64,000 nucleotides of DNA from Nesterenkonia sandarakina. GTDB lineage: Bacteria > Actinomycetota > Actinomycetes > Actinomycetales > Micrococcaceae. Location: NCBI RefSeq assembly GCF_013410215.1, contig NZ_JACCFQ010000001.1, positions 248,001-312,000 on the forward strand, written 5' to 3'. Both the position numbers and the translations under genes were made by a program. The notes under the pieces are model-generated. The model saw only the letters and a program-made list of their open reading frames with translations. It did no database searches and was not told the DNA's origin. Of this stretch, positions 9,920 to 53,133 are shown piece by piece (position 1 is the first letter of the stretch; every line of letters begins with the position of its first letter).

Positions 9920-10732
9920 TCAGGCTCCCGTGTCAGCGTCCCCCGTGGACCAGCCCTGCTCGGCGGCGATCGCGTCGAAGATCTCATCCAGGGTCATCAC
10001 GTTCTCCGGCGCCTCGGGACGCTGCGCCTCGTTCCAGGCGCTGAATCGGTAGCTGGACTCTTCGTCGCGCATCTCCAAGAGATAGGGGGCGCCGGTCGCC
10101 GCCACCACGAACTCAGTGGAGCCCTCCGCGGCGGAGTAGACGTAGACCTCGGTGCCGTCTCGGGTCTCCGCGATGCCTTCGAGCGTGGCGATCTCCGTGT
10201 CATCGAGCTCGCGCCGCCAGGTGCTGATGAGATCCTCAGCGGAGAAGACCGCCTCGGCGCCGTCGGTGTTGAACTGAACCCACTGCTCGGCCACCACGGA
10301 GACGAGGAAGTCCTCCTCGATCAGGGCCGCGATCTCATCGTCCAGCTCGCTCATCAGCAGCGAGGCGAAATCCTCGCCGCGGAAGTACTCTGCGCCGTCG
10401 ATGGCGCGCTGGGTGAAGCTGACGTCCCCGGCGGTGAAGGTCATCTCGGAGTCGCTGCCGTCCACGGCCCCGATGATCAGCAGATCCCCGGTGTCGGTCT
10501 CGTCGATCTCTTGGAACATCTGGTCGACGTCGGCCTCGGAGGCCTCGATCTCACCTTCGATGCTCACAGTGTCGGCGGTCAGCATGGCGTCCCACATGCG
10601 GTCCTGGATCTCCCCGAAGCTCGGAACCTCAGGCTCGGCCTCCGCCGCCCCGTCCTTGAAGGGGTTGCCGCCGCAGCTCGTGAGCAGGACGACGGCGGCC
10701 AGACCGCTGCCAGCCAGAGCCGAACGCTTCAT
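9920..10732 (-). CDS. Acidic lipoprotein, paralogue 2
   Basis: A 270-residue lipoprotein with a short signal peptide and lipobox LLTSC at residues about 16-20. The mature domain opens with EIQDRMWDAMLTADTVSIEG and ends RFSAWNEAQRPEAPENVMTLDEI, mirroring the downstream neighbour. Start ATG at 10732 has GGAGACCCC immediately upstream. About 90 bp separate the two paralogues. Function unknown; an LppX/LprG-like envelope role is only a structural guess. Confidence 0.8.
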   Translation of the reverse strand: MKRSALAGSGLAAVVLLTSCGGNPFKDGAAEAEPEVPSFGEIQDRMWDAMLTADTVSIEGEIEASEADVDQMFQEIDETDTGDLLIIGAVDGSDSEMTFTAGDVSFTQRAIDGAEYFRGEDFASLLMSELDDEIAALIEEDFLVSVVAEQWVQFNTDGAEAVFSAEDLISTWRRELDDTEIATLEGIAETRDGTEVYVYSAAEGSTEFVVAATGAPYLLEMRDEESSYRFSAWNEAQRPEAPENVMTLDEIFDAIAAEQGWSTGDADTGA

Positions 10733-46348: not shown

Positions 46349-46820
46349 ATCCCGGGCTTTCCAGCAATGGAACACGGACCGGATCGGCGCCAGCCACCTA
46401 GGAGAAATGTCATTTCTCTTGGACACAGCGGCCGAAAGATTGGTCCAAGTTCTAGGGTCGTTCCGGATGTCGCTCGCCCGGATGCCCTCCGGAGAGCGCT
46501 CGTGCAACGACCACAGCTGCGGACTGAGCTGCAACTTCACCCCCGTCTTGTCGCATTGCAGTGAGTGACGAGCGGGCACTCATCGGGGTTGCCTTTTAGA
46601 AGTCTCTCCACGCCCGGGACGCCGACTAGGCCTTCAGGGGGCATGCTGCTCAACCGCGACGCTGACCTAGGTGAATCGCTCTCGAAGGACGTGGCGAAAG
46701 TCCTCGGCTGGAAGTAGGGTTCCCCTAATTGCGCACGCGTGGCTGCAGCGGAGTCGAGTAGCCGGCCGGGGGTTTGCGGAAACCTAACCTCCATCGTTCA
46801 CGAGGGAAAGATTGGTCGCG
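46349..46820. other. 472-bp spacer without a supported gene
   Basis: No open frame here has both a ribosome site and recognisable similarity. A 24-codon frame MLLNRDADLGESLSKDVAK and on (from about 46643) could be the tail of a lost gene. The spacer holds a 17-bp perfect palindrome at 46402-46418. Base use changes here from GC-rich core to more mixed, marking the left edge of an accessory stretch. Confidence 0.5.
46402..46418. repeat. Perfect palindrome GAGAAATG-T-CATTTCTC
   Basis: Eight-base arms around one T, 54 bases past the TetR stop and about 400 bases before the AlbA_2 gene. AT-rich arms and single-base centre suit a protein-binding site more than a terminator. Confidence 0.5.
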
Positions 46821-48167
46821 ATGCTTGATACGAGTCGGCTGCCGAACGGTGAGGTCGGTTGGGGAAAATTGCTCGATTTTGTCCTCGAGGCTGGGGACAA
46901 AGCCGAAGCTCACTTCCTTGAGGTGAAGGGCCCCCTGGATCTGGGCACTCAGCCCCATCGAGCGAAGGTAGCGAAGTTCCTGCTCGGAGTAGCGAATCGG
47001 CAGCCAGACACGGCTGCAAGAGACTACAAAGGCTATGCGGTTCTAGTCGTGGGTGTTGGCCAGGGTCGCGCGGATGGCGTTCCCACTGGGACGGAGCACC
47101 ACAAGCTGTCGGACTCCCTCAGGAGATACCTCGGGGATGACTACCCTGGCTTTGATCTGCAACGGCTCCCACGTCCTGACGGCAGGGAAGTGCTGTTCAT
47201 CATTGCATCCCCACCCAAAGCGGGCGATCCACTCTATCCCTGTCACGCCAGCCTTGATGATGAGGCGAGCAAGCGGAAGCCAAAGCAGCACCTCCTTACC
47301 GAGGGGGCGGTCTACGTTCGATCCACGACGGAGACGCGGGTCGCTACAGCACAGGACATCAAGATGTTGAGCACTCGCGCTCAGAGCGTGGGCGCAAAGG
47401 CCATCGCCTTGGAGGTCCGCAATGTTGGTCCGATCCACAACGTCCCAGACCTAGACGAGGTGATCCTCGGCCTGTACCAGGTCACAGACGAACGATATCG
47501 AGGGAGGTATCTCAACCACCCCAAGAAGAGAGTCGAACCAAGCGTCCTCGTGCAGGCATTGGGGCGCATGGACCAAGGTCTAGGCGGTTATAGAGAGGTC
47601 AGCGCAGAAGAGCGCCAGACCCGACTGATGGTCTGGAGGTCAGAATGGGATCAACTCCTCGTTCAGGCCCGAGAGAGGTTCCTCGGCACGCTGTTGTCCG
47701 GATTTAGCTTCACAGTCGTGAGTCCCGGAACATTCATCGAGGAACCGCGGCTTGAGATTCGCCTGCACGGTTGCGAAGCGGCGGAGGTCACTCTCGATGA
47801 TTCCCCACACTTGGATGACTTCATCAAACCCGTGCCGGAACCGCGAAACTCCCTCATTCCACCGCATATGTCGTTTAACCCGGCGGCGCTGCGACGACAT
47901 GGCGAGGATCCGATCTCGTGGCACCTTGACGGCGATGACGTGGTCGTTGTGATGGAGCGTAACGACTTGCGTCCTCACACGCCGTGGCAGGCACCCGATG
48001 ACGAGCTTTCGGTCCTGGTCCGAGATGCGTCGGCTCAGACAATCAAGATCTCTTGGCGACTGACAGTGAAGGGAAGCCACGAATCCTGGGTGGGTGAAGA
48101 GGAAATCCCTACAGAGCAATCCCGCGACGCGCTGACGATCTTTCGGGAGCTCGTCGAGTTCGACTGA
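46821..48167 (+). CDS. AlbA_2/Schlafen-type domain protein, unknown function
   Basis: A 448-residue protein. Residues about 29-130 match the AlbA_2 (Schlafen-like) pattern: EAHFLEVKGPLDLG with the ExK motif, KVAKFLLGVANR, YAVLVVGVGQG and EVLFIIASPPKAGDPLY, then EGAVYVRSTTETRVAT. This fold binds nucleic acid or, in Schlafens, cleaves RNA; key acidic and lysine residues are present. The C-terminal 250 residues are of mixed alpha/beta type and not recognised. ATG at 46821 is preferred over a TTG nine bases upstream. GC content is lower than core genes. Defence or stress functions are possible but unproven. Confidence 0.75.
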   Translation: MLDTSRLPNGEVGWGKLLDFVLEAGDKAEAHFLEVKGPLDLGTQPHRAKVAKFLLGVANRQPDTAARDYKGYAVLVVGVGQGRADGVPTGTEHHKLSDSLRRYLGDDYPGFDLQRLPRPDGREVLFIIASPPKAGDPLYPCHASLDDEASKRKPKQHLLTEGAVYVRSTTETRVATAQDIKMLSTRAQSVGAKAIALEVRNVGPIHNVPDLDEVILGLYQVTDERYRGRYLNHPKKRVEPSVLVQALGRMDQGLGGYREVSAEERQTRLMVWRSEWDQLLVQARERFLGTLLSGFSFTVVSPGTFIEEPRLEIRLHGCEAAEVTLDDSPHLDDFIKPVPEPRNSLIPPHMSFNPAALRRHGEDPISWHLDGDDVVVVMERNDLRPHTPWQAPDDELSVLVRDASAQTIKISWRLTVKGSHESWVGEEEIPTEQSRDALTIFRELVEFD

Positions 48168-48381
48168 CCGGCACGTGCGACGGTCGCACGGACAGTTCAT
48201 CGTCCGCCGAGCGGGGGCGCATCAGGCTGCCCCTGGAGCGCCTACTTCAGGGAGCTCGTCACTTTTCGGAAATGAATGCTCGGGCACCACGTCCGTCATG
48301 CCCAGAATGGGTCTGAGCCCCCGTTCAGGTCTTGCGAGCCGCTAGGCCTTTACAGCAAGCGACGGCGGTCCATCCAGTGTT

Positions 48382-49779
48382 CTAGGTGCGGCCCTCAGGC
48401 CGCCCCTCACGACCGAGAGCCAGCAAGCTCAGACCAGTCTCGCGCCTTACCTGCACATCAATATCCGCTTCAGCCTGCATGGCCTCAGACGTCCGCCGCA
48501 TGTGGGTGAAGACGTAGATTCCGAAGGCTATTGCTCCGACCAAAAGTACGTGACCAATGCCGGGGATCAATGTGAGGAGAGCCCCGAGCACAATCGACGT
48601 CACGAGGGCCGCGGTTGCCCCAGCACGCATGGTCCTCGGAGACGACTTGCGATCCGCATCTCGGACTGTGACAGGCTTGCCCCTCACTGAGTACCTGACG
48701 GTATTGCGCTCATCCCCCTCGAAGCTCAGGAGGGCGATGTCACCGACTTCGGCGAAAGGCTGACCTGGATCATCGGATAGCTCCACCAATCGGGACCCTC
48801 TATGGCCACTCGACTCAGACGTGGCGGGATTTCTTGGGACACGAGACGGTTGCACGCTGGGAGACTCTTGTCGAGGTCTTTTCGTGGGCCGTTCCGTCGA
48901 GGTATTGCGTCCATTGCGAGAGGAATTGCTGGAGTAGGCGGGAGGCACTTCGTAAGAGCGCGCTTCTGAGACCAGTCGCGGGAGGATTGGCATGGAACGC
49001 AACCACTGGTCTGGGACCTCTGTGGACTTAGCGCCATGGATCGTAAGTTCGGCCGCGAGTCCAGAGCCCGTCAATTTGGACCAGACTCCGATGGTGCGCT
49101 CCATGTCGTTCGCGTGCTGGACGAGCGGCAGGTAATGCCTGGAGGTAGCGGTCGTCAGTTCACCGACTCGTTCATCGTCTAAACGCAGCTCTATGGTCTC
49201 CCGGATGCTCCCATTTTTCAGCGTCGATTCATTACGGTGCATCGTCAAGATGACCATTCCGGTTCCGCTGCTCGGCACGTAGTTGAACAGGTGCTCGAAG
49301 TGGTCTTCCTCCTTGGTGACTTGGTAAGAACGGCCGTATGGAAGAACGGCCGTGTTTGACGGATAACCATCGTTGACGGGGATCATCATTTCCGGTTCGG
49401 GCAAAGCCACACGGACATTGATCTGCGGTTCACCCTTCCACTGGTTAACGTAGGCGTGGGCAGACGCGGCCGCTCTGACTCTTGCGCCGGACGCCACGAT
49501 CCGTTGTACGGGGAGGGAGTACTCTGCGGCCATCTCTCTCGCGAGGTAGCCCAACACCTTCCCGTGTGAGCGCACTGAAACAGCCCTACGATCGTGCGGG
49601 TTGTCTTTCTCCGGGACGAGGTCGATGTGCAGCTCAGCCTGGACGGGATCACCGTTGGACGGCAGGCGAGGCAGTAACGCCAGGATCGCATCAGAATAGT
49701 AAAACTCACCGACAACATCCTTACTGGCCCACCCGCGGGCGGGGACCACGTACTCAAGACCTATCGCTTCGTCACTCAT
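48382..49779 (-). CDS. HIRAN-like domain protein with C-terminal membrane helices
   Basis: A 465-residue protein. Residues about 50-90 contain the HIRAN-type core VPEKDNPHDRRAVSVRSHGK then VLGYLAREMAAEYS, a domain that binds damaged or single-stranded DNA ends. A second alpha/beta region with LTMHRNESTLKNGS and RETIELRLDDERVGEL follows, then a Ser/Pro/Arg-rich linker (about 290-335) and two membrane helices (about 388-430). GAGGGGAAAGA precedes the ATG. Membrane attachment of a HIRAN-like domain is unusual. Convergent with the AlbA_2 gene; both share lower GC. Confidence 0.75.
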   Translation of the reverse strand: MSDEAIGLEYVVPARGWASKDVVGEFYYSDAILALLPRLPSNGDPVQAELHIDLVPEKDNPHDRRAVSVRSHGKVLGYLAREMAAEYSLPVQRIVASGARVRAAASAHAYVNQWKGEPQINVRVALPEPEMMIPVNDGYPSNTAVLPYGRSYQVTKEEDHFEHLFNYVPSSGTGMVILTMHRNESTLKNGSIRETIELRLDDERVGELTTATSRHYLPLVQHANDMERTIGVWSKLTGSGLAAELTIHGAKSTEVPDQWLRSMPILPRLVSEARSYEVPPAYSSNSSRNGRNTSTERPTKRPRQESPSVQPSRVPRNPATSESSGHRGSRLVELSDDPGQPFAEVGDIALLSFEGDERNTVRYSVRGKPVTVRDADRKSSPRTMRAGATAALVTSIVLGALLTLIPGIGHVLLVGAIAFGIYVFTHMRRTSEAMQAEADIDVQVRRETGLSLLALGREGRPEGRT

Positions 49780-49939: not shown

Positions 49940-50749
49940 TCAAGACTGGCAAGAAGGGCAGAAGTAGATCACCCGGTCGGCCACCGCGGCCTTGCGCAGC
50001 TCCGCCTCGCCCAGCTCGCTCTTGCGCACCCGGGTCCCGCAGCGCATGCAAGGTTTCCCGCCGCGCCCGTAGACCCAATACGGCGGCCCTGAGGTGGGGT
50101 TGGCGGTGGTACACCGCCGGATGCGAAGCCGGTTCACGGTCAGCAGCTTCTCGCTGAGCTCGATGACCCGAGCGAGATTGGCCACCTCTGCGACGGGCCG
50201 GGTGGGCAGGATTCCCGCGAGGAAACAGATCTCACTGCGGAATACGTTGCCGACGCCCGCGAGGTTGCGCTGGTCCAGCAGGGCCACGCCGATGCTGCGC
50301 TGGGGCGCCGAGAGCAGCCGCCGGGTGGCTTCCGCAGCGTCCCAATCCGGACCCAGCAGGTCGGGCCCCAAATGAGCGAGTCGCTCCGCCTCCTCTGCTG
50401 GGGAGAGCACGCTGAGCTCCCCCAGCGAGAAGCCCACGGCTTCCTGGTCCTGGGTGCGCAGCACGCAGCGCGCAGTATGAGCCGGACGTCGCCACCGAGG
50501 TCGTCCGCCCTGCTCATCACGGGGGTAGACGTGCCAGGTGCCCTCCATCTTCAGGTGGGACTGCACGGTGAGATCACCGAACTGCATCAGCAAGTGCTTG
50601 CCGCGGGCGATCACCCGTTCCACGGTCCTCCCGGAGAGATCCACGGTGGCGTAGCTGGGCACCCGGAAATCGCTCGAGGTCAACACCTTCCCGGCGAGGG
50701 CGGCGTGCAGCACGGCCGCCTGCCGGAACACGGTATCTCCCTCGGGCAC
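49940..50749 (-). CDS. nei: Endonuclease VIII-type DNA glycosylase
   Basis: Base-excision repair enzyme (bifunctional glycosylase/AP lyase) removing oxidised bases. 269 residues beginning with the catalytic PEGDTV (P2, E3), with HLKMEGTWHVY, the helix-two-turn-helix near NLAGVGNVFRSEICF and a C-terminal zinc finger CMRCGTRVRKSELG to YFCPSCQ. This is the actinobacterial Nei2 type. It begins one base after the stop of the PD-(D/E)XK-like gene, so the two are translationally coupled. Confidence 0.94.
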   Translation of the reverse strand: MPEGDTVFRQAAVLHAALAGKVLTSSDFRVPSYATVDLSGRTVERVIARGKHLLMQFGDLTVQSHLKMEGTWHVYPRDEQGGRPRWRRPAHTARCVLRTQDQEAVGFSLGELSVLSPAEEAERLAHLGPDLLGPDWDAAEATRRLLSAPQRSIGVALLDQRNLAGVGNVFRSEICFLAGILPTRPVAEVANLARVIELSEKLLTVNRLRIRRCTTANPTSGPPYWVYGRGGKPCMRCGTRVRKSELGEAELRKAAVADRVIYFCPSCQS

Positions 50750-50750
50750 G

Positions 50751-52112
50751 TCAGGTCTCCGTCAGTGGCCCGGCGGGCGCCGTGGCGGGTTCGCTGGAAT
50801 CCATCGAGGAGAGGTCCACGGATGCATACTGATCGTCCTGTACCCGCTCCTCCGGCTTCGCGCGAAGCTTCGGGGCTGGCGGGGTCCACGGCTTCAACCG
50901 TTGCAGCACGCGCCCGTAGAAGTCGTCGATCGAGGTGCCCACGGAGTCGATGAACGATGACTTCGCACGGGTGGATTTGGCTACGCCCATGGGATAGATG
51001 TGGGTGATCTTGAACCGGGTGATCTCCTTGTCGGGATCAGGGGCCAGGACCTTCTCGTCTTTGCGGATCTCGGTGATGGGTGCCGCCATCTTGCGACCTC
51101 GTCCGCTGGCCTCGATCACAACGTTCCCGAGGTCTTCCGAGAGCTGGCGCATCAGCCAGCGCACACGGGTCTCGCTGCGCGAATGGCCCGAGGCCGGAAC
51201 AGTGACCGAGACGTGGATCTGCTGACCCCGGAGATCACACTTCACCTCGAGGTCCGCCACCGTGTCGGGGATCCGAATCCGCGCGGCAAGACAGCTGTCT
51301 GCCACAAGTTCATCGACGAGCTCCGCCGTGCGCTCCTTCGGGTTCTGCAGCTGACGCCGCGGAAGCTGGGGGAAGACCTCGGTCCCCAGTTTCTGGCCCA
51401 GCCTCAGGCAGGTGTATCGAACGAGCGCATCGAACTTGGTCGCCACATCCACGACGTCTGGATCGCTCTTGCGCAGCACACCTTTTCGGGCGTCCTCACG
51501 CACCTTGGTCCACGAGGCACCCATGTCGGTGAATGCCAGCGCCCCCGAGTTATCGTGCTCCAAGTAGCGAATGAGCTCGCCGAGAATCCAGGCTTGATCG
51601 GGATCCTGGACGCCGTGGACCTCCTTCTGCATGAGGGCGATAGAGACGATCCGCACCCAGGAGAAGTGATACACCGGCACGCTTTTGACCTTGCGCTTGT
51701 CCAACACCAGTGGGTGGCTTCCCGCCACCGGTGGAATCTCGTTGGAGATGGTGATGACGGCGTCGTAGCCGTTGTCTTTGGCAAGATCGAGGTAGTTCTC
51801 CACCTGCTCCACCTGGAGCTCATTGGAGGAGGTCTTCACCTCGACGAGAGCGGTCCACTCCCGCTTGCCGCGCGATACCCGAATGACTCCGTCGGGCCGC
51901 AGCGCCTTCTTCCCCAGCTCAAAAGGGACTTCGACATAGGTCTCCACGTGTCCAGCCGGTGCGCCACAGGGCTTGAGCAATGCTCGGCCGAACTCATCGA
52001 CCGCGCTGATGACAGCCAGCAGCGCAGAGGTCGCTCTTCGCTCCTGCTCAATCGGACTTCCGATGCCCGATGTGGGAATAAGCCGAGCTTCATGCCAAGT
52101 CTTGGGAACCAT
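50751..52112 (-). CDS. PD-(D/E)XK nuclease-like protein, unknown function
   Basis: A 453-residue protein. The motif RPDGVIRVS (D74) followed by ALVEVKTSSNELQVEQVENY (E91, K93) matches the PD-(D/E)XK nuclease active site, with an acidic helix at residues 21-26 (IEQERR) before it. The remaining two thirds contain DALVRYTCLRLGQKLGTEVF and HVSVTVPASGHSRSETRVRW, which I do not recognise, and a charged tail. ATG at 52112 has AAGGGGT upstream; a longer reading is not supported. Sits one base upstream of nei, suggesting a DNA-repair or restriction-type task. Confidence 0.8.
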   Translation of the reverse strand: MVPKTWHEARLIPTSGIGSPIEQERRATSALLAVISAVDEFGRALLKPCGAPAGHVETYVEVPFELGKKALRPDGVIRVSRGKREWTALVEVKTSSNELQVEQVENYLDLAKDNGYDAVITISNEIPPVAGSHPLVLDKRKVKSVPVYHFSWVRIVSIALMQKEVHGVQDPDQAWILGELIRYLEHDNSGALAFTDMGASWTKVREDARKGVLRKSDPDVVDVATKFDALVRYTCLRLGQKLGTEVFPQLPRRQLQNPKERTAELVDELVADSCLAARIRIPDTVADLEVKCDLRGQQIHVSVTVPASGHSRSETRVRWLMRQLSEDLGNVVIEASGRGRKMAAPITEIRKDEKVLAPDPDKEITRFKITHIYPMGVAKSTRAKSSFIDSVGTSIDDFYGRVLQRLKPWTPPAPKLRAKPEERVQDDQYASVDLSSMDSSEPATAPAGPLTET

Positions 52113-52230
52113 CCGAATACCCCTTCGTACGCGAGAATTCACTCGAGCCTATAGGGATTTGCAATCCACCTGAGGGATTTCTTCTAAAAAACTCGTATCA
52201 CTCTCGCGCTGCGGAGGTTCCGGAAGAAGG

Positions 52231-53133
52231 TCAGGTCTGGTTCTTGAAGACCACGAGGAACTTGCGGGCTTCCTCTTTGGTCAGCGGGGAGTGGGCGGAG
52301 AGCAGCTCGGCCGCCTCATCCACCAGGTCATCGCGGAGCAGCGCGTAGAGCTGGTCGTGGACCCAGGGCTCCAGATCATCGTGGGAGAGAGTGATCTTCT
52401 CGTCCCCGCGCTGGACTTCGAGGTGGAAGCCAGCCATCTCTTCTTCATCGGTGTCCCAGTCCGCGGGGATGGTCAGCTCATCCTCGGGATCGAACCCGGA
52501 CTCTTCCATCAGACGCTTAGCACGGGCGTCCACATCGTGGGGAGCCTCAGCATCGTCCTTGTCGCCGCCCGGGATGTTCGGGATCTGCTGCGGGTTCTCC
52601 CCGATGATCTCGCCGGTCTGTGGGTCGGCCTCGCCCAGCGGCTTGGAGGGATCCCGCTCCGCACCGCGGCGATCCGAGGAGCCGGCGTCGTCGCGGACCC
52701 CGTCGATGACGTCTTCGATCAGCTCACCGTCGAGGACCTCATCCTCAGGAATATCGCGATCAGCGCCGCTGCGATCGGGGGCACCGAAGCCGGCGGCGTC
52801 GTCGGACCCGCCCAGTTCATCTGCGGCGCGCAGTTCAGAGGGCGACTGCTGTGGGTAGGCGTGCAGCGCCTGGACCGCGATGATGCAGTCCTTGATCGGC
52901 GCACCGGTGGACTGCTTGAAGATCGCCAGCGCGCGGCGGCCGTCCTCGGCGCCGATGGCGCGGTAGACCTCGCGGTGCTGCTCATCGGAGAGCGCTAGCG
53001 CGGCCTTGCGCGCGTTCTCCGGGGTCACCGCGTCCTTGATGCCGTCGTTGAGCTTCTGAGCCTGCCGCTGCATGAGCATGCGGATACCCAGGAACAACAT
53101 GACACCGACTGCGAGCACTACCAGTATTTCCAC
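52231..53133 (-). CDS. Membrane-anchored acidic protein with L7/L12-like segments
   Basis: A 300-residue protein with one N-terminal membrane helix (residues about 2-20) and a cytoplasmic part. Residues about 45-92 (ALSDEQHREVYRAIGAEDGR, RALAIFKQSTGAPIKDCIIA) resemble the C-terminal domain of ribosomal L7/L12; a second short match is at the C-terminus (PLTKEEARKFLVVFK). Between them lies a very acidic linker. Function unknown. It is divergent from manB. Confidence 0.7.
   Translation of the reverse strand: MEILVVLAVGVMLFLGIRMLMQRQAQKLNDGIKDAVTPENARKAALALSDEQHREVYRAIGAEDGRRALAIFKQSTGAPIKDCIIAVQALHAYPQQSPSELRAADELGGSDDAAGFGAPDRSGADRDIPEDEVLDGELIEDVIDGVRDDAGSSDRRGAERDPSKPLGEADPQTGEIIGENPQQIPNIPGGDKDDAEAPHDVDARAKRLMEESGFDPEDELTIPADWDTDEEEMAGFHLEVQRGDEKITLSHDDLEPWVHDQLYALLRDDLVDEAAELLSAHSPLTKEEARKFLVVFKNQT

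Follow-up and report, generated by a model that had tools for sequence, protein, structure and literature searches.

The locus described here raises the question of whether two genes that lie almost end to end also work together. It is found in a 64,000-nucleotide stretch of the Nesterenkonia sandarakina genome (the window; G000:C1:248001-312000, where G000 is the window genome), in which a gene on the minus strand (50751..52112, ATG start) encodes a 453-aa protein and ends, at its TGA stop codon (50753-50751), one base before the GTG start of nei (50749). The original prediction described a 453-residue protein with D74, E91 and K93 in a nuclease-type motif, ending one base before nei, and took this tight coupling as a sign of joint action. 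The coordinates and the three residues were confirmed on the translation of the minus-strand frame. Whether the proximity carries functional meaning, and what the upstream protein might do if it does not, are considered in turn below.

Judged from its sequence, the upstream gene looks real and under purifying selection. In all six pairwise comparisons among the four genomes in which it is linked to nei, dN/dS was 0.031-0.051, ratios that are rough because dS comes close to 1 or exceeds it in five of the six pairs (0.23 in one, 1.0-2.9 in the rest). A GTG at 52142 is a possible alternative start, and we prefer the ATG at 52112 because the earliest start of the frame in G027 is the same ATG and because GAAGGGG stands just 5′ of it. 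The gap 5′ of the gene (52113..52230, minus strand) holds a 25-base block with a -10-like CCTATAG and a CGAG..CTCG inverted repeat (52132-52156), both recognized by eye, which is kept in the four nei-linked loci and has a single match in the window; a sigma-70 scan of this gap returned no promoter site. In G020, a perfect inverted repeat (GTGTGAG-N8-CTCACAC, L023 ~10600-10621, by eye) sits right after a CCTATA box and 5′ of a nuclease gene whose product is 70% identical, and this repeat, together with the shorter one at a like place in the window, is a possible operator.

The downstream gene (49940..50749, minus strand) encodes a Nei2-type endonuclease VIII of 269 aa. It matches NF040775 over residues 1-268 (E=1.7e-92), with a score of 309.5 bits that is under the cut-off of 400, a value also unreached in 29/29 other actinobacterial genomes searched. 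An N-terminal PE start is a hallmark of Nei2/endonuclease VIII proteins, and the translation shows P2, E3 and K51 as well as four C-terminal cysteines. Pro2, Lys51 and a tetracysteine zinc site are the residues named for Nei2 (PMC11323726). The same source describes nei2 of mycobacteria as working with Lhr from an lhr-nei2 operon (PMC11323726). Such a link was rejected for the window genome, in which the only Lhr-type (DEAD_assoc) match (343507-344073) is ~45 kb from nei2 (297943-298749). Downstream of nei (46812-49779), the window holds genes for a protein with a HIRAN domain (E=7.1e-7) and for one of 451 aa that has no Pfam match at E<=0.01. The corresponding position is taken in G018 by a gene with a resolvase domain (E=3.2e-15), among others, and in G012 by a 201-aa gene, TetR-like by eye, directly after nei. 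Since these genes differ between the window and its sister genomes, the downstream side of nei looks like an insertion hotspot.

The upstream side of nei bears more directly on the question of coupling. The 19-base nei leader (CCACTGACGGAGACCTGAC; 50750..50768, minus strand) doubles as the last codons (PLTET) and the stop of the nuclease gene, and it is identical in G021, a genome that has no nuclease gene; the leader version of G027 is likewise common to the nuclease-free G016 and G011. On the far side of the nuclease gene is a 300-aa gene (52231..53133, minus strand) that has matches in 29 of the 30 Nesterenkonia genomes. In five Nesterenkonia genomes (G021, G019, G016, G011 and G022), all of which carry a nei leader like that of the window, no nuclease gene separates the 300-aa gene from nei, and the interval between the two, counted with the stop codon, is 38-41 bases. 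The leader accompanies nei with or without the nuclease, and therefore the one-base gap follows from position. We suggest that the nuclease gene occupies a gap of ~40 bases between the 300-aa gene and nei2, with its frame extending into the nei leader, which provides its last codons and stop. The site may have been filled a single time and then emptied repeatedly, or filled on several occasions.

The distribution of the arrangement agrees with this picture. A survey of the nuclease carriers found it essentially only here: nei adjoins the nuclease gene in G000, G012, G018 and G027, one small clade in which the last three are close Nesterenkonia relatives of the window genome, with nuclease proteins 86-94% identical to that of the window. 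None of the 29 other nuclease carriers had an adjacent Nei-family match among the matches listed (NF040775 at E<=1e-10, a threshold that also picks up Fpg-type relatives and at which 27 of the 29 have a match), so the pair is not conserved across unrelated genomes. The nearest same-contig match listed was in G415, ~17 kb away (110653-111465, with the nuclease at 92668-93990); several of the 29 are fragmented drafts, and a few place the nuclease gene at a contig end, which leaves no distance to measure. The window nei is matched in 15 of 30 Nesterenkonia genomes at E<=1e-40, a threshold at which three nuclease carriers of the genus (G020, G026 and G029) have no match. With the pair confined to four genomes of one clade and five empty sites in other Nesterenkonia genomes, the tight coupling is probably accidental, and it is unlikely that the nuclease and Nei2 work as a pair; functional coupling was rejected on these grounds, which removes the proposed nuclease-glycosylase pair. 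The case illustrates how one-base spacing can arise where an accessory gene abuts the leader of an older gene.

If not a partner of Nei2, what is the 453-aa protein? A leading Glu, followed by D...E-x-K and then by Q-x3-Y, is the RecB-like PD-(D/E)XK pattern. Six residues in this order are unchanged in all 33 aligned proteins, which are 33-94% identical to the window protein: E24 (codon 52041-52043, minus strand as for the others), D74 (51891-51893), E91 (51840-51842), K93 (51834-51836), Q103 (51804-51806) and Y107 (51792-51794). The conserved Asp and (D/E)-x-K of the superfamily are thus present as D74, E91 and K93 in 33/33 rows, as is, after the E-x-K strand, the Q-x3-Y of the RecB-like subgroup (Q103 and Y107); the alignment omits L029 (frameshifted), L081, L093 (truncated where its contig ends), L097 and L098. 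Profile matches of the 33 members, judged on best E-values, are weak. The commonest is VRR_NUC, with 13 members at E<=0.1 (best 7.4e-4); at the same threshold, Tox-REase-7 is matched by 3 of 33, and the non-nuclease models matched are DUF7891 (4/33), Replic_Relax (3/33), MycE_N (2/33) and two others (one member each). The invariance and the predominance of VRR_NUC support the nuclease-type motif of the original prediction, and membership of the PD-(D/E)XK (RecB-like) nuclease family is well supported by residue conservation. Residues 1-165 (51618..52112, minus strand), the region of the invariant residues and the VRR_NUC matches, would hold a metal-dependent catalytic core built on E24, D74, E91-x-K93 and Q103-x3-Y107.

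Other searches place the family less precisely. The window protein itself is below every Pfam cut-off (14.3 bits for VRR_NUC, where the cut-off is 23.8), matches a trehalose repressor model weakly (E=0.012) and has no PADLOC match at E<=1. Among the 33 members, two PADLOC models were matched by one member each, the better being a type II restriction model (E 0.013). A Holliday-junction-resolvase PHROG was matched by 5 of 26 N-terminal halves, and a nicking and a transposase PHROG by one each; PDB-sequence profile searches gave no nuclease among the matches listed. In an AlphaFold2 model built from four sequences, the order of elements is compatible with a PD-(D/E)XK core (H20-46, E76-81, E86-93, H101-113, E120-123), but pLDDT there is <50, as it is for nearly all of residues 1-196. 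Neither the PDB nor a viral library yielded a Foldseek match at E<=0.001, and AddAB chain B is among the weak rows (E 0.32-0.64). A single-sequence fold of the 453-aa protein reached a pLDDT of 40.5 and was excluded from structure matching.

The C-terminal part is modelled with more confidence. Across residues 201-410 of the four-sequence AlphaFold2 model, pLDDT per ten-residue block is 52-92, and 18 of 21 blocks are at least 70 after rounding. The best row in VIA-align was an uncharacterized Pyrococcus protein (Z 7.3), and 11 of the top 14 rows were chains of YbjN-family proteins or type III secretion chaperones (Z 5.9-7.2), including Spa15, SicP, ExsC, the YscB-complex 1XKP and 2PLG, with 3CXJ in another top-14 row; all of the C-terminal matches are below Z 8, where according to the tool a match may be merely a common arrangement. 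Each of these six (Spa15, SicP, ExsC, 1XKP, 2PLG and 3CXJ) is also in the published DALI list for DR1245, a YbjN/T3S-chaperone-like protein that is a partner of the SSB-like DdrB (PMC3575483). Taken as a lead, this tentative and weak resemblance in the model suggests a YbjN/type III secretion chaperone-like fold for the conserved C-terminal domain, residues 197-410 (50883..51524, minus strand).

The family to which the protein belongs is a solitary, patchily spread group of actinobacterial accessory nucleases. Counting the window genome itself, 11 of 58 genomes carry the nuclease, and a search of 396 genomes of the phylum at E<=0.001 gave 25; of these 25, one is a false match (L098 in G071, by eye a radical-SAM protein) and another is only a short fragment that adjoins masked bases (L097 in G138). 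Relatives occur on 11 of 72,556 plasmid records, six from Streptomyces and five from Rhodococcus. No match was found in 50,697 phage records, and IMG/VR yielded one contig with a 5′-truncated relative. On this contig (L120 1-7004), the truncated gene lies beside genes that by eye resemble those for an HK97-type capsid protein, a terminase and an HNH protein, and it may border a prophage or satellite. One copy, in G009, is broken by a frameshift, and G029 has a second small fragment, in line with the turnover of an accessory gene. Across the 34 loci compared (the gene picker located the nuclease gene in 33 and missed L024), no neighbour is common to the whole family; neighbours within four genes gave matches in the window clade, between L026 and L029, and in scattered broad families found at up to eight other loci.

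A further clue comes from the plasmid relatives. The relatives on these 11 records share 35.8-42.9% identity with the 453-aa query, of which the alignments cover 89-98%, and in the three records examined the annotated protein begins earlier and is named as TerD family. Pfam TerD matches the fused protein of L080 at residues 6-172 (E=6.6e-43), and the other N-terminal extensions align with that of L080; the identity as TerD thus rests on Pfam for one fused protein and on annotation and alignment for the others. The 11 extension-bearing rows group together with support of 99/99 in an unrooted tree of the 33 rows, with a warning from the tool that two long branches meet inside this group. A profile custom-built from the N-termini of fused proteins was run against 34 loci and had matches only in those that hold a fused gene. 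In G217, a separate 208-aa gene (L117 2662-3288) stands ~2.5 kb upstream of the fused nuclease gene and matches the TerD-type N-termini of the fused proteins (E=2.8e-54). On a Rhodococcus plasmid (L016 8291-12142), the TerD-nuclease gene is followed, from ~1 kb downstream, by a set of genes for hypothetical, ThiF, Mov34/JAB and DUF6602 proteins. TerD is absent from the window protein and from 30 Nesterenkonia genomes, so that a place in the Ter stress response, judged by TerD in the protein or genome, is seen only for the fused relatives.

The case for a link between TerD and DNA processing has mostly been built on genomic context. A nucleotide-like signal has been proposed as what TerD senses (PMC7159879, PMC7824862), and a TerD-dependent anti-phage system has been mentioned (PMC3710099). 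Among the titles and abstract openings listed for TerD and endonucleases, a set to which Anantharaman 2012 did not belong, no description of the nuclease family was seen.

Do the genes around the nuclease point to a role in defence? Our neighbour set comprised 107 proteins from 28 loci, taken from at most two genes per flank, with the window clade, L024, L029 and all proteins >900 aa left out; the control was the first 107 of 118 proteins from 20 distant regions, of which 19 are represented. PADLOC matches at E<1e-60 were obtained for 3 neighbours vs 0 controls, and 84 PADLOC models (25 of them listed) were matched by neighbours at E<=1e-5 vs 20 in the control (best control E 9.9e-54). Two of the strong matches are a DpdF/PsyrT-like helicase (L102 3470-5464, E=3.1e-135) and an AbiEii protein (L111 4011-4859, E=4.2e-68), each encoded in the neighbourhood of a relative. 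The third is a CBASS cyclase, not placed to a locus by a search that covered 10 of the 107 neighbours; a regular expression for CD-NTase motifs gave no match. Three proteins are too few to speak of an enrichment, and the association with defence islands is suggestive only.

How, then, is the protein best understood? On balance, we think it probable that it is a solitary RecB-like nuclease with a C-terminal interaction or sensor domain, a DNA-cutting protein triggered by stress or an invader that acts alone and whose adjacency to nei is positional. A single-protein stress or defence effector is favoured because the gene stands alone, is patchy, occurs on plasmids of two genera and encodes a nuclease core that is conserved. 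The C-terminal part (~197-410) would serve in protein interaction or sensing, restraining or recruiting the nuclease, and the fused N-terminal TerD may be the sensor in the Streptomyces and Rhodococcus relatives. It is tempting to speculate further that this is a one-gene actinobacterial defence or stress effector, in which the nuclease is held by the YbjN/chaperone-like domain and is switched by TerD in Streptomyces and Rhodococcus, the Nesterenkonia form being triggered through its C-terminal domain. Stated in such detail, the proposal is more doubtful than otherwise, though if true it would mean a direct connection from TerD signalling to the cutting of DNA. The main rival is a role in DNA repair, with the nuclease acting on damaged or branched DNA, the C-terminal domain contacting repair proteins much as DR1245 contacts the SSB-like DdrB (PMC3575483), and TerD sensing stress. 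The RecB-like motif set, the Holliday-junction-resolvase matches and the weak AddAB rows are all in keeping with repair, but presence in only 11 of 58 genomes would be unusual for a core repair enzyme and no conserved repair neighbour was seen, and we hold this explanation to be possible rather than likely.

Two other explanations fare worse against the evidence presented above. The nuclease and Nei2 might still form a true pair peculiar to this Nesterenkonia clade, co-transcribed and with the nuclease cutting at Nei2 products, as the shared strand, the one-base spacing and its retention in four genomes would allow; yet the 29 carriers with no adjacency among the matches listed, the five close genomes that keep nei2 and a like leader without the nuclease, the three Nesterenkonia carriers with no nei match at E<=1e-40 and the nuclease gene's own conserved upstream block together make this very unlikely. 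It is at least as improbable that the PD-(D/E)XK domain is catalytically dead and now has a structural role or one in binding DNA. Catalysis is a prediction and residues 1-196 are modelled almost throughout at pLDDT <50, but six motif residues that are invariant in 33/33 proteins down to 33% identity, and dN/dS of 0.031-0.051, argue for a working active site. The remaining interest of the locus is in a compact family with a conserved nuclease, an unexplained second domain and, in some hosts, a fused TerD.

Comparison with known systems helps to define what is particular to this protein. Like the mycobacterial lhr-nei2 operon, the window has nei2, but with a nuclease gene upstream in place of lhr. 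A motif set of E, D, E-x-K and Q-x3-Y is common to the protein and to RecB, AddB, Cas4 and VRR-NUC. The protein has no significant sequence or fold match to these four and carries a different C-terminal domain; its loci showed no conserved helicase or Cas neighbour. To our knowledge, known YbjN/T3S chaperone-like domains are never joined to a nuclease, as the one in the window protein appears to be. The C-terminal model agrees in order with the alpha-beta3-alpha-beta2-alpha topology given for DR1245, plus one extra short strand (PMC3575483). An architecture of nuclease and YbjN-like domain, fused elsewhere to TerD, would be mildly novel. Among its closest counterparts are the fusions annotated as TerD family proteins on Streptomyces and Rhodococcus plasmids, which carry an N-terminal TerD extension that the window protein does without and which share with it, in the rows aligned, the same invariant residues.
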